Assembly: GCA_031763025.1 (NCBI GenBank)
Contig: JASSKH010000002.1
Location: 798,929 to 862,928, forward strand
DNA from: Macrocystis pyrifera
Taxonomy: Eukaryota; Sar; Phaeophyceae; Laminariales; Laminariaceae
DNA: 64,000 nt
Direction: 5' to 3'
The notes beneath the pieces were generated by a model. The model made no database searches. It worked only from the letters and a program-made list of their open reading frames with translations, and had not been told where the DNA came from. This document shows, in pieces, positions 31,310-57,692 of the stretch. Position 1 is the stretch's first letter; each line of letters starts with the position of its first letter. The translations under genes were made by a program, and so were the position numbers.

Positions 31310-31381
31310 CTGTCAAACCGTTTCTGCAGAGGCTAAGGTCAGATAGTAATGACATCTTGACGATGTCCGACGGGATCGCAC
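31310..31381 (-). CDS. LRR exon 9 (72 nt, GC donor)
   Basis: One LRR per exon, phase 1 at both ends: reads AIPSDIVKMSLL…LCRNGLT between split Gly codons. The acceptor is CTCGCAG|GTGCG. The donor is G|GCAAAGT, a GC rather than GT dinucleotide. Compared with its neighbours a Cys replaces the usual small residue after LSL. This is the last recognised LRR before the ROCO module. Confidence 0.85.
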
Positions 31382-33134
31382 CTGCGAGAGCGACAGGCAC
31401 ACAGAGGGGGATTGGAACGACGGAAGAAAACACTGAACCGCCTTCGACTACAGACTAGAGTCGCACAAACCTTACGACAATGCTGGACACCTGACCGACG
31501 AACAGGTTGAGGTCCTTAATACGACAGCACTAGTGATCATTCGTCAAAAACAGTGCCCTTGGACACCAACATAGCCTACCTCAGAAACGGGTATCACGAT
31601 AGAAAAACATGTCAGATGAGATGCGTCTATCAGTGAGTTTTCCATCCCACATCAACCGAAAGGCGATGGACGTTTAGGCTACACTAAGCATTGTATGTAT
31701 ATACGTGTTCCTCATGTCGGCAGCAAGAACGCAGAGGCAGCATTGCCAGGAAGAAACAGTTCCGTGTGTTCCGAATATCGAGCAGGTGCATGTTCTGACT
31801 GGCGGCTTTCCACCACGCTCATTGGCGTGATCCAATACGCCACAGGCCCGATTCTCAACGCTGCGGGAGATGAAACTACCACGGTTCACTTTCTTTCCGG
31901 TACATTCCGCGGGATCGTACCAGATGGTACCAACACGTCGATATAGGCCACGTTAAGCGAAACTGATCGATCAAGACCGCGTTGTGTTGCGCCGGCAAAA
32001 TTAAACTTCAGCAATGGTGTCAATGTGGGGGGGTTTTTGAAGCGCCGATTAGATTGCAGCGCGAGACGAGACGGTACCGTTGAGGTTAATTGTAGCGAGC
32101 CCGCACCTGCCAGAAGTGTGAAATCATGTATATTTGTTCATGGCGGCCGAGCGAACGGTAACATAACGGGTGTGTTTACGTCTCGAATGACTTGTTCATG
32201 TGTCTTGTTGTTCTCACGTTTAGACCGCCAGGGGTCAACACTTCGACTTTACCGTAAAAACAACACAAAGTATCACATTCAGCGTTTATCTAGGCAGGTA
32301 CTGTCAAAGTGATGGGTGACTGTTCCCAGCAATTCAGTCCAAAACTGACATCACGAGGGTAGGCCGCAAAAAGGAAAAGTTAAATGATATATGCACGAGA
32401 AGCGAAGAACATACATGCGAATATAGTCAGGACAGGTCCCATTTAGTTTTCTCTGGGCGTCATTGGGAGACCGACAACGTAAACGAAATACGTCACTCAT
32501 AGTAGATCGGTTATTCCGAGCTCGTCAAGGCCGAAGCCCTGTCGTCAGGTCCTCATTATACTGGCGTCCGTGTCTGCCGGCTCCCAGCCGACGTTGCTGT
32601 CCACAGTACATTAAATCTGGGCAGTAAAGCCTCTCGTGTGCAACGCCGTAGGCCATAAAATATACGCTCGCGTATCTGTAGGAAGACAATTTTACTTTAC
32701 CGCAGACTGAAGACTACCCAACGTATATCCTCTCATTAACGACATTCTTTGTTGTTCTTTCGCACGCGTCAAGGCACAACACAAGCAACGCCGGTTATTA
32801 GTGCAAAGCTTCATCCCTTGTAGTCAAGTATGGCGCGGAAGTCTCACGCTGGTCTTCATAATTCGTAGAAACTACCAAGCATCCGAAACGGCGACATACG
32901 TGTTTTTTGGAAGTGCCGTAGGAGATTAACGTAGTCAGATCCATCTTTACCTTTTGCTCCAAATTCGTTATTGTTGTAACCAGCTAAACGTGTGCTTTCG
33001 AACTAAAGGTGGGTTTGTCCACTGGTGCATGTTCGAGACGTTCCAAAACGGCAGGAACGTTCGGCTTATTCTGGATATGACTCGAAGGGAGACCATACGA
33101 CACACGCAGTCAATACTTTGGGAATCACACTTAC

Positions 33135-33206
33135 CAGTCAAACCGTTGCTGCCGAGGTTGAGATGAGATAGTGATAACATCTTGCCGATGTTTGAAGGAA
33201 TCGAAC
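33135..33206 (-). CDS. LRR exon 8 (72 nt)
   Basis: Reads SIPSNIGKMLSL…NLGSNGLT between phase-1 split Gly codons. The acceptor TTCTTGCAG and donor G|GTAAGTGTG are both strong. It is the only family-1 exon with a canonical GT donor. Confidence 0.9.
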
Positions 33207-35066
33207 CTGCAAGAACGACGGGGTCACAAAATGACGGGACCAAGCATTATCCAGGCTGGAAAACACCGATCGTATTCAACTACGAACTAGAGTTGCTCAG
33301 CACTCACGACTATGCTGAATATCTGACCGACAAACATGTGGCGGCGGTTACATAAACACGACAGCAATAGTGGTAATTCAGCCAATACAGCACACTTCGG
33401 CACCGACACGGCCTACTCCTGAAACGAAATAACGATAGTAACAACATCTCAAACGAGATGGGTTTATCTGTTAGTTTTCCTTCCCGTCAACTCAGACGCG
33501 TTTATGCCTATACATGAACCGTTTATTTACGTGAACGTGGTCTGTAGGTCGGGGCAAGCAACGAAGAGGTGACATCGCCAGACCAAACCAGTTCTGTGTG
33601 TTCCGTATTATTGGGCAACTCCATCTGCTGATTGGCGACTTCGATTAGAGCTCATTGGCGTAAAAGCAATACACCGCAGCCCTGAATCTGAGCCCTGCGG
33701 GACAGAAGCAACTTTCCACGGCTCCCCATTTTTTTTGTACATGCGTAGGATTGTACGTATTGTATAACGTGCTGAAGATGGTACCAGCACGTGGATACAC
33801 GCCGTGTTATGCAAACCTGATCGATGAAAACAGGTTTGGGTTAGGCCGGGCAAATCCCAACGTAGCATTGGTGTCAATGTTGGGGACGTTTTAGAGCGCC
33901 GACTAAATTGCTGCTCTTGATAAGAAGGTTAGTTTTTTAGATTACTCGTATCAGGTCGGCACCTGCCAGCAATGTGAAATCATGTATCTCTGTGCAAGTT
34001 GGCCGAGGAAATATTACAGTAAATATGTATACGAATGTTTTAGTATTTTTGATGACTTTTGCATGTGTTGTCCTTGTTCCCTCGCCTTTCCAGCTAGGCG
34101 TCGACACTCTTTGACAAAACCGTCCAAACAACACAAAACATTCCATTCAACGTTTTCGCAGTCAGGAATTATCAAATTGATGGGTGGCTGAACTCATGCA
34201 TCCAGTACACGAACCGATTTGTCGGGGAGCAGCCGCAAACGCCGAAAAGTAAAGAAGTACGCATGAGAATCGTAGAACATGCCAATGAAGTCCGGACGAG
34301 TTCAGATGATTTTTCGGTGAATACCATACGGACACCGACACCGTGCGACACCGTGGACGCAGTTCGTCAAATGTAGTAGATTGTGTTGTCGAAACTTGTC
34401 AAGGGCGAAGATTTGTCCTCATTATACTGGATCCAGCGCATGCTGTTTCCCTGCATACGTTGCTGTCAACGCTAGATTGATATCGGTCGGCAAAATATAT
34501 TTCATTCTTTTCCAACAGTCGTAACTCACAAATACCCCCTCGCGTACTTATGTCGATACGAGGGAACTGTAGTGGTGCAGAATAAAGATTTCCCGACGCG
34601 TTGTTCCGTTTAAACATCAATATTTTGTCCGGTCGCACGCGGCAGAGCACCAAAAGCGTAACGCCGGCTACGATTGCGGTACTTCACGCCATTAAGGCAG
34701 ATGAAACGTAGGCGACTCACGCTGGGTCTGCACACGGCGTGGAACCTCGAGTGCTTTAGAAACGGCGACATACGCTTTCTATGAAGTACCGTAGGAGATT
34801 CACGCGGTCTCTACATTTTTTTGTATACGAAACCACATCAGGCAGATGCATGGTTGTGTTTGCGTTAGGTGTCTCCAATGCACTTGCTCCCAACTAGTTG
34901 TCGTCGTCATGAGCTAAACCTGTGATCTTGAACGAAAGGTGGGTTTATCCACTTGTGCATAGTTCGAGACATTTCGAAACAGCAGAAACGTTGAACGATT
35001 TCGGCGATATGACGCGCAAGGAGCATATATCATAGACGCCATCAGACAGTTGGGGATCACACTTGC

Positions 35067-35138
35067 CAGTCAAACCGTTACGGGCGAGGTTGAGATCGGA
35101 TAGAGATGACAGCTTGACGATGCCCGAGGGAATAGCAC
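35067..35138 (-). CDS. LRR exon 7 (72 nt, GC donor)
   Basis: Reads AIPSGIVKLSSL…NLARNGLT. The donor is G|GCAAGTGTG, matching GTAAGT except for the T-to-C change; the acceptor is CTTGAAG. Phase 1 at both ends. Confidence 0.85.
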
Positions 35139-36438
35139 CTTCAAGAACGACAGGGACACAAAGAGCGATTGCAACGACGGGGCCAAGTATTATGCAGAGA
35201 CGAAAACACTGACGGTTGTTGACCTCAACCTAGAGTTGCTCAAACTTCACGACAATGCTGTACCTGACCGAAAAACGTGTTGAAGTCTACAGTATAGCAT
35301 CAGTAATGGTCATTCAGCAAATACAGTGCCCTTCGACACCGACATGGCCTATACTAGAAGCTGACATCGCAATGGTCACAATATGTCACGCGAGATGGGT
35401 CTGCCGGTAAGGTTTTCTTCCCATCCACTCAAACGTGATATACGTTCGGGTATAGGCTAAACCATGTATGTGTATACGTGATCTTTAGGTCCGGCGGAGG
35501 AACAAAGAGGTAATTTCTACGTCAAGCCCAAACCGTTCTGTGTGTTCTGAACATCGGACAAGTGCACGTTCTAACTGGCAGCTCGAAACTGAGCTCGTGA
35601 ATGTAAGACAAAACACCACAGGCCCGACTCTCAGCCTTGCCGGACAGATGCAACTACCACGGTTCACGAGCTTTGCCGTACATTCCGTGGGATTATACCT
35701 AATATTGAATGTGCTACGGGTGGTATCAGTACGTGGATATACATTTTGCTATGCGGGTTACCTCCTTATGTCATCGAAATAGTAGATCTGTATTTTCATA
35801 CTCGCGGAGGCGAAAGCTCTGTCCTCACTATGCTGACTTCACTGGATACCGTCTCCCAGAATACGTTGCTGTTAACGCTAGACTTAAATGGTGCTACGCC
35901 TCTCTTCTTCAACGTCGTAATGCACAGATATCCTCACGCGAAGCACAGGAGTAGTCCGCACTGACGTATGTCTGACATATATATCTACCTATAAAATTAC
36001 CCTTTGTTGTCCGGCCTCATTCGGTAAACCACAACAAGAGCAACGCTGGTCGTGATCGTAATGCTTCATCCAAATGGGTCAATTAAAACGTAAGCGTCTC
36101 ACGCTGATTCTTCGTACAACCGTGAAACCTACCAGGTATCGCAAGAATTGACACGCATGGTTTCGACAAGTGCTGAGGGAGAATTCACGTAGTCTATAAA
36201 GTATGTGCACATAACGACATACCAGACATACCGCTGTTTGTAGGATCTACCATGCGCTTGCTCCCAACTTGTTCTCGTTGCCACCTGCTAAGGCTGTCAT
36301 ATGAAACTAAACGTAGGTTTGTCTACGAGTGCGCAGTTCCAGACATTGTCAAACGAAAACGAATTGTTGGAAGCACTCCAGAAGCCCCACGTGCAGGGAA
36401 CACGCACACGCAGTCACCGATTTTGAAACGATACTTGC

Positions 36439-36510
36439 CGGTCAGCCAGTTGTTGGAGAGGTCGAGGCACCGAAGAGATGACATTTTGTCTATGTCCGAA
36501 GGAATCACAC
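36439..36510 (-). CDS. LRR exon 6 (72 nt, GC donor)
   Basis: Reads VIPSDIDKMSSL…DLSNNWLT. The donor is G|GCAAGTATC and the acceptor GTGCAG. Phase 1 at both ends. It belongs to cassette family 1, but its second half resembles family 2 (NWLT as in the 41.5-kb exon), hinting at exchange between families. Confidence 0.87.
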
Positions 36511-38521
36511 CTGCACCGATTTGGAGGGCACAAAGGTCGAGTATGATGGCACGACAATGACGCAACTGGCGATTTAGATGACACGACAGGAACACTAAGG
36601 GCGATGAAGATGACGGGGCCAAGTGTTGTGCGAAGATGCAAGCAGACAGAAAAACACTGACGGCTTGCGACCACAAACTAAGTTGCTTTAGCCTCACGAC
36701 ATCGTTATAGAAGTGAGCGACGAACATGTCGACATCTACCGTACCACAGTAAGAGTTACCATATAGCAAGTACAATACGCTTCGCCACGGCGAAGTCATA
36801 CGCAAGAATATGACATGACACTAGTAGCAACATGTCACGTGTGATGGTCCATCAGTAAGTTTTGCCATTCCCTGAACTCAGGAGGTGGTGGACGTTTACG
36901 CCTTTAGTAGACAATATAATGCGTAAACTTGATCTATGGGTCGGGCAGCAGAACAAAGAGGAAACAATGGTCGGGTCAAAAGAGTTGATGTGGTTCTAGT
37001 GTCGACTAAGTCCATGTTGCCACTGGCGGCTTGGATTCAGTTCATTGTTTTAAAGAAACAGAATGAAGGCACGATTCTCAGTGCTCCAGGACAGAAGCAA
37101 CTACAAAGGTTCGCGATTTTTCTCGCACGTTCTACGGCATTGTACGCGCTAATACCGTGCTAATGGTGGTGCCAGCACGTCAATAAACGCCGTATTATGC
37201 GAAGCTCGTCGTTGGAAACCACGTGGGGTCACGCCGGGCATACCAAACCGTAGCAATGTTGTCACTGCCGGAGATGTTTGGAGTGCCTAGGAGCTTGCTT
37301 CGCGGAATGGAAAACATATGTTTATGCTACTCGTAGGAAGCCTGCACCTGCTAGCGATGTGAAATCATGTACCTCTGTTTAGATTGATAGTAACAACAGT
37401 GATCTAGGAAGTATCTTAACATCTTCACATGCCGACTTGTTCATGTGTTTAGTTTTTTTCCGCGCGTTGCCGGCGAGGAGTAGACGCTTGAGCAAGCCGT
37501 CAGAACACGAGATGGTAGTATGCAACACCGGTCGTGTCAGGTAGTATCCATGTGCATGGTGACTTATAGTAACTCCTCCATCAAGTCGACTATTTTCACA
37601 ACGTTCGGGCGACCGAGACACGAAACATTCGTACATGAGAGATAAGTGAGAACTATGAGAACGGAACAAGGACGGGTCTAAATCGTTTTCCCTATGGATA
37701 CCATAGGGGCACCGGCACAGTGGTGAACGATATAGGTCGCCGGCAGTAGATCGGTGCTTCCAAGATCGTCGAGCCTAACGCCCTCTCCTCCTGATACTTA
37801 CTTCAATGTGACGGAAAGACAACCAGGCACACAGCCTTCATTCAGAAAAGGTTTCTGTCAACGCCCTAGCATAATTCGATGGTGAAACTATCACGTATAT
37901 CGACTGGCGAGACATTTTTCACTGGATCTGCATTGAACCATCCATTCAAACGACTATCAATTTCCGCGAAAATACGCAGATGGCAACCAAACGAGTATGT
38001 GAACAAAGACGGAGGACCATACATACCCCGTGTCAACAACGATGTTCATGGCGAAAGAGGCTAATCAAGCCAACGAGCTGGTCGATCTCGACGGAAATGA
38101 AACCTTCGACGAGGGCGAACGCAAAAGTCAAGCGAGTCGATGCGAACGACGGCCCAATGTCAATAGTCAACGTGCTGTGAGTTACATAACCGTTCGAAGT
38201 GAAGGCATTAAACCATGCTTTACCGCTTCATATTGCGTGCAAACCTTGGACGCATCTACAAGTAATGTAGCTACGCGACTTTCTAACCTTGGCTGTGTAC
38301 ATTTGTGAACACTTGCTGGCAGTGAGTACACCAACCAGCGGAATGTATTCCGCAGAATTTCAGAAATCTGCATCTATTTATCTATCTACATACCTCACAA
38401 TTTCAGAAATTTGTGAGATATACGTACGAAGAAATGCGCTGTATTTATATGTGTTGAGCATAATGGGCAGACGTACTTCTATTCAGTATACAACACTCAC
38501 GTTATTATAATAACCGCATTA

Positions 38522-38628: not shown

Positions 38629-38629
38629 A

Positions 38630-39559: not shown

Positions 39560-39630
39560 TAATGATACGCCATGAAACAAAGAGTAGCTTTGCCAAGGAC
39601 GTCCGCTGGCTGATCTGAGTTGGGAGGGTA
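39560..39630 (-). pseudogene. Decayed LRR exon (relic)
   Basis: Aligned with the exon at 43224-43295, the minus strand reads TLPTQISQRTSLAKLL and then loses the LxLxxN pattern. The acceptor has lost a base (GTAG|TACC where the sister has ACAG|GTACC), which would break phase, and no donor remains. It is a third family-2 exon that has died. Confidence 0.65.
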
Positions 39631-41467
39631 CTACATCCAATTTTAGGATATATTAGGCCATGAGCAATAATGGCTGCTTACAGCACAGAAACACTCAAAT
39701 TGTTTTAATTGTCCTGACATGCAACGCTGTCATTCGCAACAACGCCGGCAAGCGTCGTACGTCCGTACAACATGTGTTATGGAAAATTGTGTGATGAAAC
39801 TCACGAGTGTCTGCAGGTCGCTAAACGTCAATGTTCTATACGCATCGCTTGTACCTCATACACGCAAAGGTTTCCTCGAATGATTCATCCTTACCAAATC
39901 TATGATAGCCAACACCGACGTGACAGCCAATCAGAACAAGATGCGTATTTGCATTATCTACTAAGGTTGCAGGCACCTTTCCTGATTGTATCAATTTTAT
40001 ATTGAAGTTCCCCTTCGGAAGCATGAGTGATGGATAACTCCTTTTCCGACAGCTACAAAAGTGTCGCCGTGATAAAATGCAGCGACACAACTGATCTCTA
40101 TCCGTTTTAGGTTGACTCGTTTCCGGTTGCTTAAGCATTGTCGAGCCCTGTGGAGTGCAATTTTCTACGGTGTTGTCTTTCAACCCTACGCCGTCGCGCC
40201 TCAGAGACATGCTTACCAGGTGAGATACTAGTAGTCTCCAAACGTGCAGGAGAAAGATCAAGCGATCAATGAAAGCGAAAACAATATTTGGAACGATCGA
40301 TCCTGCCGTAGCGCGGGCGTTGCACATCGTTCACATTCTGAGTTCCGGTATGGAAAACTAGCTTCAAACCAACACTCGATAACATGCCTCGCTTTCGATA
40401 CAATGCTGCTACTGTAGTGAATGGGCAACACGCCTCGAGAACGGATGTAGATCTCCCTGTTTGCTAAGCACAAAGCATGTTTCCGCGCCGTGCACAGCAG
40501 CTGTGTATCGCTTTGTTCAGCGGCGTATATAATAGTCGTTGCCATACAATACGCCGCCAAAGCAGCAACACACCCCTCGACACCAACGTGTTGACATTCA
40601 CGCTCAAGCAATGCAGACATGATATGAACAAATGTCACAGCAAATGGCACGACTGTAGTTTTGGTTGCCCTCGTGCTGCATGCGTGCCACGCTACAAGTA
40701 GGAGGTTTGCTCGGCTCCAAAGCTGCTTTTCATGGCATTTTCAAAACGAAAAAGTGCTCTGCATTTGTTTTTTTCATCATATACGTCCAAAATTAGGTAG
40801 TAATAACTTTGTATTCTTTAATGACAACGCCATTTCCGGCAATGGTTAGGTAAGCTGGGCTCTCGTCTTCCGCATGGCTCGGCCACACACACAGGTTAAC
40901 TCAACCCGCGGGAAAATTAGGGTCACAGGCGAAGGTTGAAAGGAATATTGAAACCCGAGGATGTAACCGTTGTACACGGAAGCAACAACACTCCCAACCA
41001 CTAGAATAGGAATAGCAACAAACGAAACTTAGCCACATCGCCAACATGATGAGCAGCCCGCTTTTGGGGTAGACCAATGGATACACACGCCCACCCATTG
41101 GTACTGTCTCTACCGCATCATCACTCCGGAACGCATAAATAGATGGTGATTCCGAACTCCGCGCCCATTGAAGTAGGCAATAAATAACAGGGTCGGTGAT
41201 ATTGCTCGCGTGAACCTTCCTTGAATACATAGGCAAAAAAAAATAATGCACGTGATTAGTTGGTGATACGCACGACCACGTCAGTACGGGTAGCGAAACA
41301 ACACCCAACTTGCCTTCGATCATGAGGTATTTTACTCCAACGTAAACATCGCATCGGGTATACATAACGTTCAGCACTTGTGTATCAAGTAGTTCTTCAC
41401 GTCATGAATAGATAGTCGATAAAACAAAATAACTGAATAGCAGGTTAGATTACCCCCGCAACCTCAC

Positions 41468-41539
41468 CTGTCAGCCAGTTCAAGCTGATGTGTAGCTCTC
41501 TCAAGGCCGTCAGCTGACACATTTCAGACGGAAGAGCAC
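41468..41539 (-). CDS. LRR exon 5 (72 nt)
   Basis: Reads ALPSEMCQLTAL…HISLNWLT. The donor is G|GTGAGGTT and the acceptor AATGCAG. Phase 1 at both ends. Sister of the 43.2-kb exon; they differ mainly at exposed LRR positions (SEMC/SDIG, REL/SEL, HIS/YIS, LNW/VNR). Confidence 0.9.
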
Positions 41540-43223
41540 CTGCATTCAAGGTTTGCATATTTTTGGCCATGAGGAATAGTGGCAGCGTGCAGTCACTGAA
41601 ACACACAAGTTGTTGATGGGTCCTACGATTCAAGGCTTGTATTCACAACAATACCGGTAAAACGTCCCGAGTCAATACAACGTGCGTCCTTCAGAGTACT
41701 ATGATTGAAGCTTCTAGGTTCTGCAGGGTTGGCAAACGTCACGTTCTTACGTGTGCTGTTTATACTTCATACACGTAGAGGTTTCCTCGAACCGTCCAGC
41801 CTGACCAATGCATGATAGCCAAGATCGACTCAACAGCGAACCGAAACAAGATGCGAATTTGCAGTTACTAGTAAGGTTGCAGGCACCTCTGCTTAGGACG
41901 GTAATTTGATATTCAAGTCGCATTTTGGAAGCATAAGTTATGGATAACAAGTTAACTGAGAGCTTCAAAAACTAGGCTTGTGAGAACTACAGTAGCACAA
42001 TGGATCTACGTTTAATTTATTCGAGAATAACGTTCATAGGCTAACTCGTTTCTGTTTACTTGTGCTTTGTCGAGTCCTGTCGCGTTTGGAACCAGGCATA
42101 TTAGTTTTAGTCTCTTTGGTTCAAACTGTGCGCTGTCGCGTCTCAAAGACGCTTATCCCGGGTGAAATGCGAGGAGTTTCCGAACATGTACGAGCAAGCC
42201 TGACCGACCAATGAGAGCGAATCTAATGCTCCCAGGGATAGGCGCCGGCGTTGCACATCGTTAACGTTTCGGTTTGGGTCAGGCCTGAGTCCCCGTGGTA
42301 AGGGGCATCTTCGCTTTCGATACACTGTTGCTACACCGACTACAGGACATCACGTCTTAAGAACGGATGTAGCTCCCCAAATTTTGAACACAAAACAGGA
42401 TTGCACAGTGCACAACAGCTAGCTGTGCATCCCATCATTCGGCAGCGTATAGTCGATCGCACACACTACGCAGCTAAAGCGGCAACACACCCTGAACATC
42501 AACATGTTGACATTCACGCCCAAGCATGGCAGACCGCGTAAGTGGCGCAATTACTGCAAGCAGAACGACTGCCTTTCTGGCTACGCCCATGTGGCATGCT
42601 TGCCAAGTGACAGGTAGATGGTTCGTTCGGCTTTAAAGACCTTTTTCATGGCATTTTTAAAACGAAAAGCATCTGTCATGGGTTCTTAATCATCCGTGTG
42701 GAATGTTAGGTCATATGATGACACCATCTCCGGCATCCGTTAGCAAGCTAGGTACGCGTCTTCTGCTTGATACGGCCTCACAAACATCAACTCGACTAAC
42801 GGGCAGACTAGGGTCACGGACAAAGGGTGAAATGGATATTGAAACCGAAAATGTAACCATTCTACACGGTACTAAATAACATTCCAACTTGCAAGGAATA
42901 TCAACGAAAGCAATTTTTGCTGCATCTCCATTATGCCGGGCAGCGCGTCACTGGCCTAGGACCACTAATACACACGAGCACTTAACAGTGCTATATCTTC
43001 CACATAGTAACTCGGGAAAATAGAGTGATTCTAAACCCGCGGCCATTGAAGTAGGCAAAAAAAACAAGGTCGGTGATATTGTTCGCGTAAACCATCCTTG
43101 AATAGGATATAAATAACAATCTACGCAGTTAGTTGTTGACCAGGAATTGTTTCACGTCATCAATAGATACTCGATGAACGGAAGGAAATGAATGGTAGGT
43201 TAGATTACCCCCCGCAACCTCAC

Positions 43224-43295
43224 CTGTCAGCCTATTCACGCTGATGTAGAGTTCGCTCAAGGCTGTCAGCTGGCCGATGTCTGAAGGAAGGGTAC
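43224..43295 (-). CDS. LRR exon 4 (72 nt)
   Basis: Reads TLPSDIGQLTAL…YISVNRLT. The donor is G|GTGAGGTTGC and the acceptor GGATACAG. Phase 1 at both ends, in cassette family 2. Confidence 0.9.
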
Positions 43296-44999: not shown

Positions 45000-46649
45000 G
45001 TTCAACAAAGCACCATCCCAATCTACCTACATTAGCACAGAGTCGGTAGCCAAACTTGCTTTAGAGCCCGGGCGACCGACAACACAACTTTGCGCACAAA
45101 CAAACGTTAACCGCATGAACATGCATTAAACAGACCAGAAAAGAAAACATTCACGTACGAGGTATGAAGTCATCATTATTTCCACATATCTACGCGATAT
45201 ATTTTGCAAGAGACACACCGAGTTTCAAACAGGGTATCGAATCGTGTTATTTACGTTTTTTTTGGACTTGCAAAAAGTACGCGTGGTAGATGACTGTGAG
45301 CAGGTCTAAGCTCCTCTCTACGTAACATGATCATCGATAATTAAGACTGAGTCCCTGCGGGAATTCAGCAAGTAACGCGTTCGACCGAAAGTAATTAATC
45401 CCCACCGGGGCAATCGTCCATCGTACGGCCGTTATCGGCGACGTAGCGAAAGGGCAGGAACAACGTGTTTTCGTGCATGAAATAAATTTCACGTGTTTCG
45501 TTGGATATCCGGTTGAATTGTGGGCATCACGCACGCTGTCTTGAGCGATTATGATACAACATGGGCGAGAGTTGTGTCCGGTGGAGTGATTAAATACGAT
45601 GTAGACGTGGCAGTGCCGGTGGACAGCCGAGCCTAGGTCAGGTACGTTGAGTTCCCGCCGTACAGGATTGAAATAACCAGTCACAGCGAGGGATGGAGCG
45701 CATCGTTCGGAACAAACACATATTTTTGATTCAACGCTAAACGTGGCTGATACGTAAAGCGTTCTGTATTACAAACACAAGACAACACAGGCGCGACCGT
45801 TGTCCAACATTGGGTATCAACATCCTTAGAACTTTCATTTAGTCGATTGGGATCGACGGCAAGACATGATAGACGCACCAGCTCGTTGAATGATAAATAT
45901 GTACAAACTGGACACGAATATGTCATCGAGCATACTTGAGCAGCACTGACGTCACACGTCACGATGAAGGAGGAAACGGACATTGTTTGTGCTCTGGACA
46001 TTATATCTCACTGCCACCAACAACCAGAGCCGGAGACTAGGTGTGCGCGCAGCCTCATGAGCAGTCTCGTTGGGTATGGATTTACCAGCCACACGAACAA
46101 ATAGAAATACGAATAGGGTCCCGAATGTATACTCATACCATTGGGCTTTAACGAACCCGCCTCCACTACTGTGGTGTTACCCCCAGCTGGTTAATTCCTG
46201 GTCAAGATGGCCAAAACCTTTGGACCCTTGCTGCTAGATTTTAGGGGTCCACGTGTCGCTCGATATTAAATGTTTTGTCTTGCAGACGGCGATATTTTTC
46301 AGCAGGGTATTCCACATATTTTCTCTTGAGACGTTTGGGTATTTTTTGCTCGATAGGGACTGAAGTATGTTCTGGATTTCTCCTATTGAGAAAAACGTAC
46401 GTAGCTGAAAACGCGGGCGCATAATGAAAAGCTGCGTACCAGGTTATATATAATGCTCTACTGCCACGAGTTGAAATGAGCTTCTTTTTGTTTAGACTTT
46501 CCTTCGTCGGATACAACCGATCATAACAGACACAACAGGAAGACACTAAAAGCGTGTTTCGTGGGGGACGGGTCGAGAGTGACATGCCAACATGTTTGAG
46601 CTGGAATAAACGTTAGCACTGCGTGTCAATCGTATGGTGTGGTGTGCGC
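45000..46649 (-). other. Intronic stretch between family 2 and the segmental duplication
   Basis: Apart from the Cys-rich candidate frame at 45331-46001, minus-strand frames at 46234-46585 are open in two phases at once, so neither can be supported. Confidence 0.35.
45331..46001 (-). pseudogene. Possible Cys-rich coding remnant, two overlapping frames
   Basis: Two minus-strand frames of 106 and 117 codons meet near 45684 and could be one ~220-residue protein broken by a one-base shift. Together they have about 14 Cys and three N-x-S/T sites, as in a secreted or surface protein, but no signal peptide or family was seen. It lies inside an intron of the LRR locus on the same strand. Confidence 0.2.
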
Positions 46650-47021
46650 AACAGACTTGCTTCAGATCACGTCTGCCCGACTACGTCATGATGGTGTGTA
46701 TAGCGGTAATCTGTGGGTTGAACATTACACCAGGCACACGTCATGTTTCGAGTGGACTCGCTCAACATCTAGGTGGCCACATGACTTATTTCCCAAGCAC
46801 GTTTGTAGCCGCTGAGTAGATCTGACACTGCCGGACGCCCGTCGGAAGCCGCGACCGCAAGGGGACAGGCAGAGAGGAGCGAATGCCGATCTATACAAAA
46901 TATAGGCTTCTACTCTTTATCCAATCTACATATATGGAAATAAACAGGAGTCTAGTTTCGTCCTGATTCAGGCCAGGGGAAACAATATGTTGTTTGCCGT
47001 ACAAATGGGCGGCAGTAGGTC

Positions 47022-47130
47022 TATTACGGGGAACATAGTAAACAGGACCAATTATTATTAGTAAAAATACCTGAATATATAGGTTTTTATGTATGCCATA
47101 GGTCCTGTTAACTATATACGCCCGCAATAG
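47022..47130 (+). mobile_element. MITE copy D
   Basis: TA-flanked TTACGGGGAACATAGTAAAC at left and CTATATACGCCCGCAA at right, with core ATTAGTAAAAATACCTGAAT. It was present before the segmental duplication, since copy E sits at the same place. Confidence 0.85.
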
Positions 47131-47689
47131 TTGGGGCAAAACTGGTCGTCCCAGCATGTGGACTCGGCTTGTTGGTTTCGCGATTCAAAGCACATTGTTG
47201 TTTTGGTGACAGCTTGGCGTGGTAGGCATGGTTGTGGCAAGCTACGAACGAGAACAGACTGGTGGATATTGGTGTGTGGTCTTTCCAAGGTCGGAAGTAC
47301 AGATTCAGCAGTACGACACCGTTTGGAGGCGACTCTAGACGAACTTAACGTGAGCCCGACCTCTGTGCCTAGGAACGGTCGATCACTTAGATTGTTTTGC
47401 GTGCTTTTGGCCATCAACGAAAGGAGCACAGGTGTACCCATAGGCGCATGCTCCTCTCTGGAACAGGTCTTACCTAGCTCCCTATAAGGCTCAAGAAACA
47501 GTGATGACGCAAGTCGATGGCCTAGCTATAGAACCAATGAAAAACAGCTTCAAACGTGTTTCAAACATACTCATATAGTTTTTCAGTTGAGAAGGGCCGG
47601 CAGCCAGAAGTTGTCTGGACAATAACTACATAGATGCACTCAGTTTACTGCGCGTATATTGGTGAGAATCGGGCACATTTCGCCGACCG

Positions 47690-48290
47690 AGTGCCGAGAG
47701 CGTTGCGGTACTGACGGCTTCAATACCGCGAGTACCGGTCGTCTGAGCAGTACATAACCTCGAGTACAAGCCGTGCCCGCAGTGTAAATACACGAACGTC
47801 TTGGAGTACTTTGAGCATCATGTGTATTGAACCCGTGAATACTGCGAAGTACTCGAGTCACCCCCCCCCCTAGTGTCATTCGCTCCAACACCCACTCGTG
47901 GGACCATTCGTGAACGATGTCTGCTATCATGTCAAGAAAGTTTGTTTTCAACGTTGCACAGATGATCCAAGTACTTCACGTGCACTGCGAACGTTGATAG
48001 CATTTTAGTACTCCTTGTACTCGTCGCCGTACTAACGGACGCAATACTGCCAGCACTCGGCAGTACCCGGCGTACAAACCTTTGAATGTTTGAGTAAACC
48101 AATGTTTCACAGTGCTGGAACCCGAAATGCTGCAACTACGGCAGTATCCGCATGTACAGCATGCACTCGCAGCATCCCTCAGTCCATAAAGCCCCAATAC
48201 TACGCAGTACACGAAGCACCTGAACTGTGTTACTGTCGGAAACTGTTTACGCCACTCACAGGTACTGGGAGCACCTGTGAAAATACTCCT
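47690..48290. repeat. Degenerate GTAC-rich repeat
   Basis: CAGTAC, GAGTAC and GTACTG words recur densely. Two ~60-bp blocks share GTACT(G/A)ACGG…AATAC(C/T)G(C/C). Its twin is at 53930-54530. No function is evident. Confidence 0.45.
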
Positions 48291-49319
48291 ATGGTACCAC
48301 GCGTCCGTAGTCGACGAAGCGCATAACAGCACCGGCTGTAAGGATGTAAATAGCTCTTGCCGCGAAAGCAGCATAAATACAAAAAACGATGAATATTTCT
48401 GTGTTGTTTCCATTTTTTCGGAGTTTCTGATACGGACGTGATAGCCTATCTACAGTCAGCAAGAAAATAAGCGTCGCTATTGCACAGCAATCACACGCGT
48501 GTGGGAGTAGTCTTACTTTGGGAAACGAATGACCCAATCGGTTACGCAGCATTGGTGAACGAAATCGCAGAGAGCCCCGGTGCTGAGTTCTGCATGGGTG
48601 GCGAGGCGTATCATGACCATTTTTCTACCACAGTGAGAGCATCAAGACAACCACGCCAGAATAAAATCCATGTTATCATGTTTGGGTCATGATCAAAAGT
48701 TAGCCTCCTCCGTCTACTACTACATTGCTCTATCGATCGCAACACGTCAATGCTTAGAACACCAACAAGCGTGACGATGATGGCGCCGCATGAAACGCCA
48801 CGACCTATTAAACTAATATCACGTCGAACAGTGGTGGTTTTTAGTCCTCGACGTAAAGCCAAGGGGAAATCATTGTTAGTGCTTAATATAAGACGCAGTG
48901 CATCAAATGTGCTTCAACTTTAGCACTTGACAAAGTAGGTGGAATCTATGGAGTTGTAATTGCTGTCTGAATGTAGCATTTATTGGTTCATGTCGACCAC
49001 CACCACCTGCATCCCTTCATTCGCGTACAGTACAACGCGGCAGGGTCTGGGCAGTGATGCATCGACGTTCTCGTATCGTAGAGACGAGTATAAAAACGTG
49101 CTACCCTTCCTCAAGTCTACAAAAGACCGGCATTGTAATGAAGCCCTGCCTTGTTACTAGCCCAAGACCGACCACAGATCGATAACGTGTAAATCGTCCA
49201 TTCCTTAGTTCGACGAGTGTATATTAGCCTTGATTACGTCCGCGCACCGACGTCTATTGCAATGAAAATGTTAAATAAACCTGGGAACATTCATGAAGGC
49301 TGGTGCTGACCTATCTCAC

Positions 49320-49391
49320 CGATCAACTTATTGAAGCTCAGGTCGAGGATCTTGAGGGCCACCAGATTGCTGAGACAAGCCGGGATGGAAC
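49320..49391 (-). CDS. LRR exon 3 (72 nt, duplicate copy 1)
   Basis: Reads SIPACLSNLVAL…DLSFNKLI. The donor is G|GTGAGATAGG and the acceptor TATCCAG. Phase 1 at both ends. It differs from its duplicate at 55561 by four bases, all changing amino acids (F/L, K/D by two changes, I/T). Confidence 0.92.
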
Positions 49392-51538
49392 CTGGATACG
49401 TCCCGAGGGCAGCACGGGAAGAAGGGAATCGAAATTATGCTTCATGGCAGTGGACTAGGAATGCACAGACACGGAGGAACAGAAACAAGACAGAACTCAC
49501 CACGACCTGACTTTAGCATAATCCAGCGTCATTCGCGTTTCAGGTACAAAGTGAAATTCGCTGCGGGGCAAGAGAATCGAAATCGCGACTCCTGCAGGAA
49601 ATACCGCATCATATTATGTTGCAACAGTCTTTGATAATTACCTCACTCAGGTTCTTAAACGGCGCAAATAACAACTCGAAAACCGGTTTAGTAACAGTCG
49701 CCGTACAAAACCACGCAAGGCGCGTGTGTATTCCCAAATGTGTCAAGTTTGACTCACTTGTAAGTGAAAGGGCGAGCACTTCATCGTTTACTGAATTTCC
49801 GAGTTCATCCCTATACGTTTATCCGCAGTTCTTTATCAAACCTCTATATCCATTTTACCACTCGCCATTTTTAGATTCCCTCTGATATTTCAGACACATG
49901 CACCTTGGCACCTTCCGTGTCGGCCTTTCCTACTGAGGTTCGGGCTTGCGATTCGATTCCTCGCTGGTTTGAATACAGTCAAAGACAACAACGCACCTAT
50001 ACCGGTACCTCGTAACTAGCTTGCGGTTATTCATGACAGGTGATCATTTCACGGGGTACAAGGGTAAGCAACAAGATATTTTGTTCACGGAAGGCACGGT
50101 AACCCTACAATGTTCGCACGTGATGTCAAGAACAAATGTAACGGTCCTAGTTCCTCATGCGTTTCCACGGCGCTATGCTAAACCAAGGTTAGGTCTAAAA
50201 CGTCAAAATGTTTTTCTGACAACCACACGTCCTGACATTCACTCTCCAGCAGGCAATATTTGTATACACCATAGGGATAGCTGCCAGCCTGCACTACTGT
50301 GGACTGCTTATGCGCGGGCGGTGCGAATAATTCAATATCAAAATTTATATATGCCGGCCACAGCGCAGGTCAATATATTTTTGGCAGTATTCGTCTGGTC
50401 TGGTCCACACGCAACAACCTACTGTAGTATGTGCGACTTGACACCCCCCACCCTATAGCCCCGTAGTCAATATGGTGCGCAGCGCCATGAGGTCAATGCT
50501 GGGTTCAATTCTCGGGATGTGATGCTTTTTTATTGATATTTTTGCATGCAACGAGTCTCATACAAGCAGGTGTTACAACAGTATAGAAGAACAGAACGAT
50601 TCTGTGTTCGGTTATTTTGTTGTCCTGTACGTATTGAATCCACTCCTTGGATCTCATGCGGTAGGTACATCATGTACATAGTGTTTGTTCCCAATAGCAA
50701 CATCACCACTTGATGTTGCATGTGTTTCTTTTGGAGAAATTTTAGCATGTAACGCAGAGTAAGAAAATGTACGCTTAACGGGAGGAGGTATTAAGGATGA
50801 TACTTGTCAGTAGCATCCTTAATAGTCGTTACTCGATAACACTTGCGTCATCTGGTATACATTTACGCATTTCTAAGTACCGCGGACAGTTTTCCAGTCT
50901 GTGAGTAGCAGCAGTATACAGCAGCAGCAGTCCTACAATAATATCTTCTGCTGTGCACTCGTGCATATTGCATAATAATAGGTCTCAACAACAAGCAGCG
51001 CATCGTGGATCTACTGTATTACGTACGCACAGAATATACAGCCAGCAGCACACATGTACAGCAGTACCTGGTGCGTGCGCACTGGTAAATAATGGACAGG
51101 GTATCTTCAGTATCCCGTCGGGACCAGTAGCATAGTTCTAGTTGTGGTTGAAGTAACAATATAGGCTACAAGAGGGTCATGAGTACGTACCCCAAGTTTT
51201 ATTGTTTTTAGCAGTAGAATTGCGGGTCTCCGTGTTGTTTTATATTGAACTGAATGCAAGGGTATTTCCCTATTTTTGTTTTGAACGAATTTGTAGGGGT
51301 CGTCCTTTGTTTCGAGCCGTGAGCGCACACGCGCATCGCTCCCCTTTGAGCTCACTCTACTTTTGCTCACCATCATCAGCTTCCAGCTGAGCAAATGAAC
51401 CAACACTGTGGCTTGGGGTCACCACATCTTCTTCTCTTCTATTGAAGCTTCTCGTAAAAGTCACCTAACAGTGGCTATACGTTTGCCTCGAACATTTATT
51501 TTGACTGTGTATTGACCGGCCATCGGCAATCGAGTCTA

Positions 51539-51573: not shown

Positions 51574-52024
51574 AATCGCCATACCTAATACGTTCCACGA
51601 TTTCTGGCCGTTCACGGTCCGCGCTCCGCGCTCACGGCCTCTTGCGGCTCCTACGAAGGGCTAATTATATGTCTACAACTTGTGGGTCGGAGCAGGGTGC
51701 CGAACGGCATCACATCCGGGTGAGAGCAAGAGAGCGAACCAGTCGTTTTCCCGCCTTAATGGAGAATTTTCCAGAAACGTATTTCCCTACAGCATGGAGA
51801 ACTATACTGCCAAAGGTGTCCTGGGCTTGTTCGCGGCCGCAGTCAAACATAGGCGAAAAAGAGTGCGCGAAAGGATGCATAGATGCAAGAGGTATTTGCT
51901 CGGCTGCACTCTGAACAGATTGCTATAGCGCACTGGGAAACTATTCACAGAAAAAAAAACGGGTGGGCGCCTGCCACATCACAAGTCCGTTTGTATTTTG
52001 CAGGAGATTATTGCTTATTCCGTG

Positions 52025-52133
52025 TATTATGGGGCACCATAGTAAATAGCACCAAATATTGTTGGTAAAAATAGGGAAATTTATAGCTTTTTGTGTGTAC
52101 CGTACGTCCTATTTACTATGGTCTTCCGTAATA
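52025..52133 (+). mobile_element. MITE copy F, within element R
   Basis: Left end TTATGGGGCACCATAGTAAA, right end CTATTTACTATGGTCTTCCG then TAA; core GTTGGTAAAAATAGGG. The same insertion is present in R copy 2, so it predates R duplication. Confidence 0.85.
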
Positions 52134-53265
52134 GTCTACTCCAAATGCGAAATAAGCATGAGCGACTTGACACCTTGCATTATTGCGGTGCTCGCAAACG
52201 TTCCAAAACATTAAAAAACAAATTACCACAGCAATCCAGCTTTTCTACGGGTGAGGTCGGTATCATCTACACTGCAAGACTGTGCCGAATATGTTACGTG
52301 GCTGGGTATACATACGTTCGTAAAGTTTTCGGGCATGTATCCGTCCTCAATGTTTTAGCACGGTAGGCACGACCGCGGATCCTTAAATAATACTGCGATA
52401 ACATGACTACTGTCTCCAAATTTGTATCCAAGTTAAAGGTACGATTGGTACTCCGCCTTGTACTATCAATACCCGGATATCGGTGTACCCGGGGACGAGA
52501 TATCCGGGTATGGATACGAACTCAAACACTATACCTACTCCTTCCCAACAATCTGAAACCTTGGGTGTGTCATGTTGCGCGGTCTGTGACACAGGCCAAC
52601 TACACTTTTCAAATTCTACTACTTTCGTAGCCTGCGGCCTAACTCCGTACACAAGTAAGGCGCATTTTCCGATCCCACACGCAAGCTACGAGAAACGCAC
52701 CCTTGTAATACATTGATAAACTATTTCAACACGATGGAGTGAAAAAGGCGCAAATAAACCATGGGGTTCGTGAAGCGAAGAATTATATTGTTGGCGAAGA
52801 GTAAGCGGATGTTATTAATAGCAACTATTCGTGATTTTGGAACGAAAATATTGTTTTCAGATATTTTCTGTCGGATCGCAAGTGATCGTGTGTGCAGCAG
52901 ACTTGCTTCAGATCACGTCTGCCCGACTACGTCATGATGGTGTGTATAGCGGTAATCTGTAGGTGAACATTACACCAGGCACACGTCATGTTTCGAGTGG
53001 ACTCGCTCAACATCTAGGTGGCCACAGGACTTATTTCCCAAGCACGTTCGTAGCCGCTGAGTAGATCTGACACTGACGGACGCCCGTCGGAAGCCGCGAC
53101 CGCAAGGGGACAGGCAGAGAGGAGCGAATGCCGATCTATACAAAATATAGGCTTCTACTGTTTATCCAATCTACATATATGGAAATAAACAGCAGTCTAG
53201 TTTCGTGCTGATTCAGGCCAGGGGAAAAATATGTTCTTTGCCGTATAAATGGGCGGCAGTAGGTC

Positions 53266-53374
53266 TATTACGGGGGACCATAGTAAACAGGACCAATTAT
53301 TGTTAGTAAAAATACCTGAATATATAGGTTTTTATGTATGTCATAGGTCCTGTTAACTATAGACGCCCGCAATA
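53266..53374 (+). mobile_element. MITE copy E
   Basis: Twin of copy D inside the segmental duplication. It has the more complete left end, TTACGGGGGACCATAG, while copy D has lost bases there. Confidence 0.85.
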
Positions 53375-53929
53375 GTTGGGGCAAAACTGGTCGTCCCAGC
53401 ATGTGGACTCGGCTTGTTGGTTTCGCGATTCAAAGCACATTGTTGTTTTGGTGACAGCTTGGCGTGGTAGGCATGGTTGTGGCAAGCTACGAACGAGAAC
53501 AGACTGGTGGATATTGGTGTGTGGTCTTTCCAAGGTCGGAAGTACAGATTCAGCAGTACGACACCGTTTGGAGACGACTATAGACGAACTTAACGTGAGC
53601 CCGACCTCTGTACCTAGGAACGGTCGATCACTTAGATTGTTTTGCGTGCTTTTGGCCATCAACGAAAGGAGCACAGGTGTACCCATAGGCGCATGCTCCT
53701 CTCTGGAACAGGTCTTACCTAGCTCCCTATAAGGCTCAAGAAACAGTGATGACGCAAGTCGATGGCCTAGCTATAGAACCAATGAAAAACAGCTTCAAAC
53801 GTGTTTCAAACATACTCATATAGTTTTTTTCAGTTGAGAAGGGCCGGCAGCCAGAAGTTGTCTGGACAACAACTACATAGATGCACTCAGTTTACTGCGC
53901 GTATATTGGTGAGAATCGGGCACATTTCG

Positions 53930-54530
53930 CCGACCGAGTGCCGAGAGCGTTGCGGTACTGACGGCTTCAATACCGCGAGTACCGGTCGTCTGAGCAGTAC
54001 ATAACCTCGAGTACAAGCCGTGCCCGCAGTGTAAATACACGAACGTCTTGGAGTACTTTGAGCATTATGAGTATTGAACCCGTGAATACTGCGAAGTACT
54101 CGAGTCACCCCCCCCCCTAGTGTCATTCGCTCCAACACCCACTCGTGGGACCATTCGTGAACGATGTCTGCTATCATGTCAAGAAAGTTTGTTTTCAACG
54201 TTGCACAGATGATCCAAGTACTTCACGTGCACTGCGAACGTTGATAGCATTTTAGTACTCCTTGTACTCGCCGTACTAACGGACGCAATACTGCCAGCAC
54301 TCGGCAGTACCCGGCGTACAAACCTTTGAATGTTTGAGTAAACCAATGTTTTACGGTGCTGGAACCCGAAATGCTGCAACTACGGCAGTATCCGCATGTA
54401 CAGCATGCACTCGCAGTATCCCTCAGTCCATAAAGCCCAAATACTACGCAGTACACGAAGCACCTGAACTGTGTTACTGTCGGAAACTGTTTACGCCACT
54501 CACAGGTACTGGGAGCACCTGTGAAAATAC
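53930..54530. repeat. Degenerate GTAC-rich repeat, twin
   Basis: Copy of 47690-48290 in the second segmental duplicate, with a 3-bp deletion near 54260. Confidence 0.45.
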
Positions 54531-55560
54531 TCCTATGGTACCACGCGTCCGTAGTCGACGAAGCGCATAACAGCACCGGCTGTAAGGATGTAAATAGCTC
54601 TTGCCGCGAAAGCAGCATAAATACAAAAAACGATGAATATTTCTGTGTTGTTTCCATTTTTTCGGAGTTTCTGATACGGACGTGATAGCCTATCTACAGT
54701 CAGCAAGAAAATAAGCGTCGCTATTGCACAGCAATCACACGCGTGTGGGAGGAGTCTTACTTTGGGAAACGAATGACCCAATCGGTTACGCAGCATTGGT
54801 GAACGAAATCGCAGAGAGCCCCCGTGCTGAGTTCTGCATGGGTGGCGAGGCGTATCATGACCATTTTTCTACCACAGTGAGAGCATCAAGACAACCACGC
54901 CAGAATAAAATCCATGTTATCATGTTTGGGTCATGATCAAAAGTTAGCCTCCTCCGTCTACTACTACATTGCTCTATCGATCGCACCACGTCAATGCTTA
55001 GAACACCAACAAGCGTGACGATGGCGCCGCATGAAACGCCACGACCTATTAAACTAATATCACGTCGAACAGTGGTGGTGTTTAGTCCTCGACGTAAAGC
55101 CAAGGGGAAATCATTGTTAGTGCTTAATATAAGACGCAGTGCATCAAATGTGCTTCAACTTTAGCACTTGACAAAGTAGGTGGAATCTATGGAGTTGTAA
55201 TTGCTGTCTGAATGCAGCATTTATTGGTTCATGTCGACCACCACCACCTGCATCCCTTCATTCGCGTACAGTACAACGCGGCAGGGTCTGGGCAGTGATG
55301 CATCGACGTTCTCGTATCGTAGAGACGAGTATAAAAACGTGCTACCCTTCCTCAAGTCTACAAAAGACCGGCATTGTAGTGAAGCCCTGTCTTGTTACTA
55401 GCCCAAGACCAACCACATATCGATAACGTGTAAATCGTCCATTCCTTAGTTCGACGAGTGTGTATTAGCCTTGATTACGTCCGCGCACCGACGTCCATTG
55501 CAATGAAATTGTTTAATAAACCTGGGAACATTCATGAAGGCTGGTGCTGACCTATCTCAC

Positions 55561-55632
55561 CGGTCAAGTCATTCAAGCTCAGGTCGAGGATCTTGAGGGC
55601 CACCAGATTGCTGAGACAAGCCGGGATGGAAC
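55561..55632 (-). CDS. LRR exon 2 (72 nt, duplicate copy 2)
   Basis: Reads SIPACLSNLVAL…DLSLNDLT with donor G|GTGAGATAGG and acceptor TATCCAG, phase 1 at both ends. It matches the NxLTG consensus better than its duplicate at 49320. Confidence 0.92.
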
Positions 55633-56691
55633 CTGGATACGTCCCGAGGGCAGCACGGGAAGAAGGGAATCGAAATTATGCTTCATGGCAGTGGACTAGG
55701 AATGCGCAGACACGGAGGAACAGAAACAAGACAGAACTCACCACGACCTGACTCTAGCAAAATCCAACGTAAGTCGCGTTTCAGGTACAAAGTGAAATTC
55801 GCTGCGGGGCAAGAGAATCGAAATCGCGACTCCTGCAGGAAATACTGCATCATATCATGTTGCAACAGTCTTTGATAATTACCTCACTCAGGTTCTTAAA
55901 CGGCGCAAATAACAACTCGAAAACCGGTTTAGTAACAGTCGCCGTACAAAACCACGCAAGGCGCGTGTGTATTCCCAAATGTGTCAAGTTTGACTCACTT
56001 GTAAGTGGAAGGGCGAGCACTTCATCGTTTTACTGAATTTCCGAGTTCATCCCTATACGTTTATCGGCACTTCTTTATCAAACCTCTATATCCATTTTAC
56101 CGCTCGCCATTTTTAGATTCCCTCTGATATTTCAGTCACATGCACCTTGGCACCTTCCGTGTCGGCCTTTCCTACTGAGGTTCGGGCTTGCGATTCGATT
56201 CCTCGCTGGTTTGAATACAGTCAAAGACAACAACGCACCTATACCGGTACCTCGTAACTAGCTTGCGGTTATTCATGACTGGTGATCATTTCACGGGGTA
56301 CAAGGGTAAGCAACAAGATATTTTGTTCACGGAAGGCACGGTAACCCTACAATGTTCGCACGTGATGTCAAGAACAAATGTAACGGTCCTAGTTCCTCAT
56401 GCGTTTCCACGGCGCTATGCTAAACCAAGGTTAGGTCTAAAACGTCAAAATGTTTTTCTAACAATAGCGGCAACCGTACGTCCTGACATTCACTCTCCAG
56501 GAGGCAATACTTGTATACACCACAGGGGATAGCTGCCAGCCTGCACTACTGTGGACTGCTTATGCGCGGGCGGTGCGAATAATTCAATATCAAAATTTAT
56601 ATATGCCGGCCACAGCGCAGGTCAATATATTTTTGGCAGTATTCGTCTGGTCTGGTCCACACGCAACAACCTACTGTAGTATGTGCGACTT

Positions 56692-57620
56692 TTTTGCACC
56701 CTAGTGACGCCACGGCAGTAGATTTGTCCATGTTTGAGGTTGGCGTATAAAAACGTTGCACGGTTGTGTCAAGCAACGAAGGCAGTTGGAAATATCCGCC
56801 CAGGAAACCGGGGCATGTGTCCGAACCCGACTCTCGAGCACGTAAAGAACGACCGTCGACACCTTCGTCAAGTTACGAAAATACAACCGCGACGGCCTCA
56901 TGCGCATTGGCTTACTATACCGTTCTTCATCTATGTAGCCCAACCCGTCCTCCGGCTAATTGATATGCCTGTCGACTACATCGCTGGACATGGGTACGAC
57001 TCCAAATACCGTTTTTGTTGTCGAACTGAGCAGGCGTGGGTTATGTCAGGTACGAAGTTGGGTATTTAGTCAGACTAAGCTTGTGTTGCTGTCTATTGTC
57101 GTCATGATTCGGTAAGCTGGGTGAGCGTCGTCTGCATTGCACGGCCACGCACGAACGTCCACTCAACCAACGAGTACCTTTCGTTCTCGAACATTGATTG
57201 TATAGTACTGGTGCAACCCGAATGTTTAACTATTGTACACGGCACCAAACAACACTCTAAACAAACTGCTTGGAATCTCAACATCAACTGCAAGTTCACT
57301 TCATCGCAACCTCATGAGTGCACAAGAGCACCCAACGGTACTGGTGCTGTCTCCGCCTCTAAGCTTAGTCCGGAACTCCCGCGCTGGAGTTTTGTTCAAC
57401 CCCCCGCGCCTATTGACGTCGTCAATTATTAGCAGGATCGGCGGTATTTGCTTGCAAATGACTCTGTTGAACAGTCGATGAGACTTTCCATGCAACACGG
57501 ACACAGCCGTCGTCCGAACGTGCTTTATTTCCGCTGCGATCAACAACCCAGCTATGTAAGCAGAAACTCTTAACCAATTCGAAGATCGTCGGCGAATCAA
57601 CAAGCATTCCCAAGTCTTAC
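56692..57620 (-). other. Intron; third copy of family-2 flank
   Basis: 57100-57300 matches 40850-40990 and 44575-44760 (AAGCTGGGTG…, CACCAAACAACACTC, ATCAACATCAA). Plus-strand frames (56734-57069, 57121-57432) are unrecognised. Confidence 0.5.
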
Positions 57621-57692
57621 CTTTCAGCTTATTAGTCCCGAGGTTAAGCTTTTCCAAGGTCACTAGCGTGCTGATGCCGGAAGGAATCGTAC
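57621..57692 (-). CDS. LRR exon 1 (72 nt), most upstream intact
   Basis: Reads TIPSGISTLVTL…NLGTNKLK. The donor is G|GTAAGACTT and the acceptor GCATGCAG. Phase 1 at both ends. Sequence beyond its acceptor (GAGCC AGCGAATGCC, CAGATCAAACCG) recurs beside the truncated LRR exon at 61.7 kb, so both derive from one cassette. Confidence 0.9.

Follow-up and report, generated by a model that had tools for sequence, protein, structure and literature searches.

A giant-kelp LRR-ROCO locus with one repeat per symmetric 72-nt exon

Exon shuffling of leucine-rich repeats (LRR) in LRR-ROCO and NB-ARC-TPR genes of Ectocarpus, with diversifying sites, was reportedly described by Zambounis et al. in 2012. In the account of Teng et al. 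(2024; PMC11378527), 111 ROCO genes were reported from four brown algae, with LRR exons of 72 bp, shuffling of these exons, splice variants in Ectocarpus and variable sites at positions 14, 16, 18 and 19. A gene of this kind was analysed here in the giant kelp Macrocystis pyrifera, in a stretch of 64,000 nucleotides (nt) of contig JASSKH010000002.1, which is called the window (C200:798929-862928, where C200 denotes contig numbering and coordinates without prefix are those of the window). The locus is read as a single large giant-kelp ROCO gene whose symmetric one-LRR exons were copied and kept under selection, and a probability of about 0.83 is assigned to this reading as a whole. The exon pattern, domain order, duplications and selection can be read from the DNA itself, and the LRR exons may be spliced, some of them optionally, while the product, which may sense ligands and serve in immunity, is a candidate immune receptor.

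The LRR exons and the gene that carries them

A pattern scan of the window (AG, 72 nt, then GT or GC, with an LRR core required) yielded nine LRR exons, all on the minus strand, exactly 72 nt long and free of stops, each preceded by AG and followed by a GT donor in six cases and a GC donor in three. Each encodes one 24-residue plant-type LRR, and since a codon split after its first base lies at both edges of every exon, all introns are in phase 1 and the exons are symmetric (1-1). The nine stop-free 72-nt exons with splice-like edges, a common phase and one LRR each, which an earlier note on this DNA had listed, were borne out at the same coordinates. Of the bounding sites that it described, three of the nine donors read GC and not GT; the nine exons do lie within 31310..57692 as it held, but the array runs past the window, with five more LRR exons on the minus strand just upstream (C200 869339, 872521, 876723, 877182 and 890758), and 14 LRR exons are assigned to the gene. 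An amino-acid profile built from the nine exons was run over 324 kb of chromosome (the window and its flanks). With a threshold of 10, its first round already recovered 21 exons, 12 of them absent from training, and three later rounds again gave 21. The final profile, trained on the very 21 exons that it scores, gave 39.8–58.8, with real sequence empty between 0 and 39.8, and the best scores in shuffles that preserve base composition in 200-nt blocks, not dinucleotides, were 8.0 for the nine-exon profile (5 shuffled copies) and 2.3, 4.5 and 6.3 in successive rounds for the 21-exon profile (15 shuffles, 5 per round). With nhmmer, 25 of the 34 rows had E ≤ 1e-3; besides all 21 exons they comprised two truncated relics, one unit of 69 nt and one that had lost a base.

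The gene lies on the minus strand and spans about 74 kb, counted from the N-cap exon upstream of the window (C200 ~891.9 kb; LYRTTGGDLW...GTWYGV, near 891.8 kb) to the C-terminal exon at 19.2 kb. The domains follow in the order N-cap, 14 one-repeat LRR exons, C-cap/P-loop, ROC, COR, a further exon and the C-terminal exon. The ROC GTPase motifs P-loop (GSSGAGKT), G3 (DCAGQLDY) and G4 (NKCD) are all present on the minus strand, with COR downstream on the same strand, and they support the identity as an LRR-ROCO gene proposed in the earlier note, of the type known from Ectocarpus and other brown algae. The ROC exons of the window are frame-broken. In the related protein P0004, 73% identical over the match, the COR, post-COR and C-terminal exons are joined with no intron between them, a sign of a spliced message in a relative. 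Two hydrophobic segments of the C-terminal exon, one borderline (1.76) and one strong (2.64), were found by the 19-residue Kyte-Doolittle mean; a term search of the main text of Teng et al. (PMC11378527) gave transmembrane prediction in the methods and no result on a C-terminal hydrophobic segment.

The order is equal in a paralogue at C200:1042.7-1062.2 kb, where an N-cap, LRR exons (five of 72 nt, one of 69 nt), G1, G3 and COR follow one another; it is without N gap, and neither stop nor shift was seen in the exons read. Its ROC exon passes the Pfam Roc PF08477 cut-off (30.8 against 27 bits), and the joined LRRs pass Pfam LRR_1 and LRR_8. This gap-free neighbour can serve as a comparison for cassette history. 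A third ROCO locus lies at C200 920-927 kb. With a COR protein query, 11 rows were obtained in the genome, covering five places on C200 (that of the window giving three rows) and one row each on C199, C206, C169 and C129, of which C169 and C129 are weak; the Pfam COR-B profile gave 0 matches in this genome and is too weak here, given the 11 rows of the protein query. The further COR-bearing loci are C200:1127545-1128420, C200:1242266-1242553 (a fragment), C199:3828934 and C206:3298799, and the five COR places, that of the window included, fall within ~425 kb of C200 (819-1243 kb).

Cassette families, duplications and selection

Three families of LRR cassettes were recognised by their flanks, with four exons in family A and two each in families B and C (Table 1). 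Family B further takes in one relic and shows a partial relation to the exon at 57621, and family C takes in three exons upstream of the window when flanks are compared with exons masked. The cassette structure noticed earlier is visible, but the flanks give three families and not two; the larger duplications noticed with it were recovered by self-comparison, as a 3.8-kb duplication at 97.7% identity together with the head-to-tail units of families A and B. That the 97.7% duplication is a haplotig artefact was considered and is improbable: no gap interrupts the stretch that holds both copies, and the gametophyte sequenced was haploid (PMC10498591). The flanks of family A recur 91–101 kb away at C200 926672 (minus strand) and 931608 (plus strand), mostly 58–68% alike with exons masked, and the latter carries a lone family-A LRR exon (C200:931608-931679, plus strand, GC donor), against the orientation of the three neighbouring ROCO genes that were read; cassettes of one family thus lie in or beside two ROCO loci, once inverted. 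One kelp locus offers a record of a receptor gene gaining and losing whole repeats, with fresh (97.7%), old (59–69%) and dead cassettes together.

The exons of families A and B are 66.7–79.2% identical without gaps, whereas their flanks are 60.6–73.8% identical with 6–17 gap openings per ~700 nt; the zero gap count is partly built in because the exons were found by length, and the substitution test is free of such bias. Among six disjoint exon pairs, with the recent pair excluded, 61.8 of 310.3 replacement sites had changed, while the figure for silent sites was 49.2 of 103.7 (p = 2e-7), and selection is supported since silent sites diverge faster than replacement sites. Amino-acid changes fell on the published sites 14, 16, 18 and 19 in 18 of 28 cases and elsewhere in 36 of 133 (p = 3e-4; seven disjoint pairs). 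Selection on the exons is measurable, and the replacements favour the concave face; the contrast drawn earlier, of introns that diverged while exons kept length and frame, holds, and its suggestion of selection is supported by the excess of silent change. Positive selection in the recent duplicate (49320 against 55561) was considered, as its 4 nt differences are all replacements in the last 14 nt, and was dropped for uneven divergence along the 3.8 kb, where 278 of 3739 stretches of 72 nt have at least 4 differences; the Poisson values of p = 0.037 (72 nt) and 0.013 (replacement sites) neglect this unevenness.

Unequal crossing-over between introns would add or remove one repeat with the frame untouched, since every exon is symmetric and holds exactly one repeat, and this process is inferred because the head-to-tail units have their edges in introns. 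The copies would then be retained by purifying selection on the LRR scaffold, with exposed concave-face residues changing more, as would fit the expectation for a surface that binds ligands. Ligand sensing is presumed to fall to the LRR horseshoe and switching to the ROC GTPase/COR pair, and the C-terminal hydrophobic segment possibly anchors the protein. ROCO-linked markers have been associated with growth in Ecklonia (PMC12913910), so that roles other than immunity are possible for ROCO genes.

Table 1. Features located in the window (minus sign, minus strand)
Feature	Position	Strand	Remarks
LRR exon, 72 nt (TIPSGISTLVTLEKLNLGTNKLK)	57621..57692	-	GT donor; remote resemblance of downstream flank to family B
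LRR exon, 72 nt, family C	55561..55632	-	GT donor; in copy 2 of 3.8-kb duplication
LRR exon, 72 nt, family C	49320..49391	-	GT donor; in copy 1 of 3.8-kb duplication
LRR exon, 72 nt, family B	43224..43295	-	GT donor
LRR exon, 72 nt, family B	41468..41539	-	GT donor
LRR exon, 72 nt, family A	36439..36510	-	GC donor
LRR exon, 72 nt, family A	35067..35138	-	GC donor
LRR exon, 72 nt, family A	33135..33206	-	GT donor
LRR exon, 72 nt, family A	31310..31381	-	GC donor, weak (gcaaag)
C-cap (LEGNPW) and ROC G1/P-loop (GSSGAGKT) exon	25797..25990	-	5' edge approximate
ROC exon, G3 motif DCAGQLDYAG	24411..24655	-	5' edge approximate
ROC G4 motif NKCD	23029..23040	-	read by eye
COR exon	20530..21381	-	5' edge approximate; COR-B PF25497 E 1.6e-4
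Post-COR exon, approximate	20236..20375	-	matched by spliced-looking protein P0004
C-terminal exon	19209..19622	-	acidic stretch, then hydrophobic segments; matched by P0004
Family A, four head-to-tail units, ~1.8-2.0 kb, 59-67% alike	30017..37790	-	self-BLAST, flank comparison
Family B, three head-to-tail units, ~1.7-1.9 kb, 67-69% alike	39584..44974	-	self-BLAST; exon of the 39.6-kb unit dead
3.8-kb duplication, copy 1	46629..50439	-	97.7% identical to copy 2 by BLAST; one family-C exon
3.8-kb duplication, copy 2	52875..56691	-	BLAST; one family-C exon
Relic family B LRR exon, edges approximate	39560..39640	-	8-nt insertion, altered acceptor, donor absent; recognised by position in unit
Truncated LRR-exon relic	61667..61718	-	nhmmer E 4e-6
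Possible LRR-exon relic	28297-28327		nhmmer E 0.0085
Assembly gap, 100 N	29896..29995		only gap in 324 kb
MITE-like element sites	16836; 21769-21865; 38527-38627; 47028-47122; 52025-52133; 53280		

More duplicated stretches, about 90% identical and outside the LRR exons, were observed at 51591-51947 and 59866-60231 and at 52039-52690 and 61011-61662. An element of ~100 bp resembling miniature inverted-repeat transposable elements (MITE), with inverted ends like GGGGNCCATAGTWAAYAGGACCAA (consensus by eye), occurs at several sites of the window, some of them between exons of the gene and one within the 3.8-kb duplication. At 13288-13853 a TC repeat of 283 copies (98% matches) falls in a 12-16 kb zone of strong strand skews, and an Rfam search of the window gave 0 matches.

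Frame breaks, the assembly gap and competing explanations

Several results weigh against a single selected gene. The LRR array is separated from the ROC-COR exons by the 100-N gap; four frame breaks relative to relatives lie within the ROC-COR exons of the assembly; the COR-B match reaches 22 bits, below the 27-bit cut-off, and that of P0001 21 bits; the concave excess is weak when compared with non-scaffold positions only (18/28 against 29/70, p = 0.047); dead LRR cassettes occur, such as the family B relic near 39.6 kb; and no transcript-like protein of the locus spanning LRR exons was found among the matches listed for either of two queries in a set of 5.8 billion proteins. The query of 405 residues (joined LRRs), whose length limits exclude short transcript pieces, gave 3234 hits from 7990 candidates scored, and as the top of the best 120 listed is 45% identical, none of these 120 comes from the window locus. 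The query of 236 residues (LRR plus ROC) gave 69 hits among 854 candidates, where P0161 is near-identical but genomic. In favour of the single-gene reading, LRR and Roc occur together in the Ectocarpus protein P0141, which aligns to 98% of this query at 36% identity. As regards COR, profiles found it in 18 of the 111 brown-algal ROCOs of Teng et al. (PMC11378527).

The frame breaks bear on whether this copy still works. One break lies at AVET/YLQD in the C-cap/P-loop exon, where the frame is continuous in P0161; the ROC exon shows a break in comparison with the paralogue and with P0137-P0139; and the COR exon has two breaks that are absent from the near-identical P0001 (possible extra breaks near 22885 and 25980, seen by eye only, were left out of the count). 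Three of the four breaks are accordingly absent from P0001 and P0161, which otherwise differ by a few residues, and as the contigs of both read into the same introns, both are genomic. An indel difference of like kind occurs in intron sequence also, the frame-broken exons sit ~4–10 kb from a contig end, and the assembly was made from PacBio reads with Canu and polished with Racon, other polishers being unnamed (PMC10498591). The absence of the breaks from P0001 and P0161, the intron indel and the Racon polishing together make assembly indels likelier than a null allele, and the breaks are probably such indels. A decaying pseudogene, with clean LRR exons, broken ROC-COR exons and a locus kept as a cassette reservoir, would account for the four breaks, none of which has a counterpart in the paralogue exons read, and pseudogenes are reported among brown-algal ROCO genes (PMC11378527); against the absent breaks, the intron indel, the assembly method, the nearby contig end and the excess of silent over replacement divergence in the LRR exons, this is considered unlikely. 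The pseudogene explanation overlaps the single-gene reading on the kind of gene and concerns only whether the copy still functions.

The gap itself invites the explanation that Hi-C scaffolding has joined two loci, one with the array and one with the ROC-COR exons, the former being an LRR-only reservoir as reported from Saccharina japonica, and shuffling LRR exons outside ROCO genes have indeed been reported (PMC11378527). A fragment of family-A flank lies, however, on the ROC side of the gap at 28.0–28.7 kb in equal orientation and ~59–63% alike, which argues that the join is right, and strand and order agree with the gap-free paralogue, so that two loci are distinctly improbable. Diversification of the array by somatic DNA recombination, in line with the adaptive-immunity hypothesis ascribed to Zambounis 2012 by PMC11378527, would be allowed by modular in-frame cassettes and by the family-A cassette inverted near the neighbouring locus; the graded old divergence (59–69%) with one pair at 97.7% is, on the other hand, as germ-line duplication over time predicts, and somatically recombined ROCO loci are, according to the same source, not reported so far. 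Weighed on one haploid assembly, without a search for recombination signals, such recombination appears very improbable. Chance LRR look-alikes in repetitive DNA, for which nothing speaks beyond the absence of transcripts, are ruled out by the score gap (39.8 against 8.0), with the selection statistics and the domain context on the same side, and their probability is close to nil.

GC splice donors and comparison with known systems

GC donors were observed on 8 of the 21 LRR exons, namely on four of the five in the paralogue and three of the four in family A of the window, among others, and four of the eight read GCAAGT, an otherwise full consensus. None of the 12 other exons of the three loci has a GC donor (8/21 against 0/12, two-sided p = 0.030; p = 0.067 in an earlier comparison with nine non-LRR donors), a comparison that is biased, since the in-frame GT was chosen by eye as the donor of non-LRR exons and donors are inherited among related exons. 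A scan without the splice-site requirement added a single LRR unit, whose donor was again GC, and no unit followed by GA or GG came up (score ≥ 8). GC donors are rare among the ordinary introns of well-studied genomes. They make up less than 1% of donors in mammals according to PMC2490688, which cites their enrichment among alternatively spliced human, nematode and Arabidopsis genes. In the main text of Teng et al. (PMC11378527) there are 0 instances of the terms donor, GC-AG or splice site, and a literature search on GC donors in brown algae returned nothing in its listing.

It is a tentative idea, and a doubtful one, that the LRR cassettes are built to be optional, with GC donors marking repeats that the spliceosome can skip with the frame intact. 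If so, one germ-line gene would yield many receptor surfaces and T-to-C changes in donors would tune which repeats are optional; donor strength would be linked to repeat choice, and brown-algal recognition diversification would be testable by RNA sequencing and a minigene assay. Possibly new are the GC donors, seen at 8 of the 21 LRR exons, and the cassette family common to neighbouring loci, once inverted; the donor pattern is the part of the locus most worth following. A literature search on Macrocystis, ROCO and LRR gave no paper titled on the window locus. The earlier note had matched the locus to Ectocarpus-type exon shuffling as a generator of receptor diversity; this was partly supported, in that the kind of gene stands, while variable joining in mRNA and a receptor diversity made by it are hypothetical here.

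The Ectocarpus system of Zambounis et al. is reportedly alike in its LRR exon shuffling in ROCO genes. The metazoan LRRK2 and MASL1 share the LRR-ROC-COR domain order and are not known to have a one-symmetric-exon-per-repeat layout. The exons of DSCAM are mutually exclusive alternatives at fixed positions, whereas those of the window gene are additive repeats. Arthropod DSCAM is alike in its tandem duplicated exons, one module each, used in alternative transcripts (PMC11378527). The closest likeness in layout is to the brown-algal LRR-ROCO genes of Teng et al. (PMC11378527), with one LRR per 72-bp exon, N-terminal LRRs followed by ROC, a COR that profiles seldom recognise, the variable sites 14, 16, 18 and 19 and pseudogenes discussed, and the 'phase 2' of that work, in which codons run from nt 3 to nt 71, corresponds to intron phase 1 in the window gene. 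The cassette detail offered earlier as an addition had already been published there, as one LRR per 72-bp exon, shuffling and splice variants. Giant kelp, in contrast, is not among its four species, and the parts of that article consulted (PMC11378527) report no cassette family that is common to neighbouring loci and has an inverted copy. The kind of gene is already known in brown algae, and the giant-kelp locus is a well-documented new example of it.

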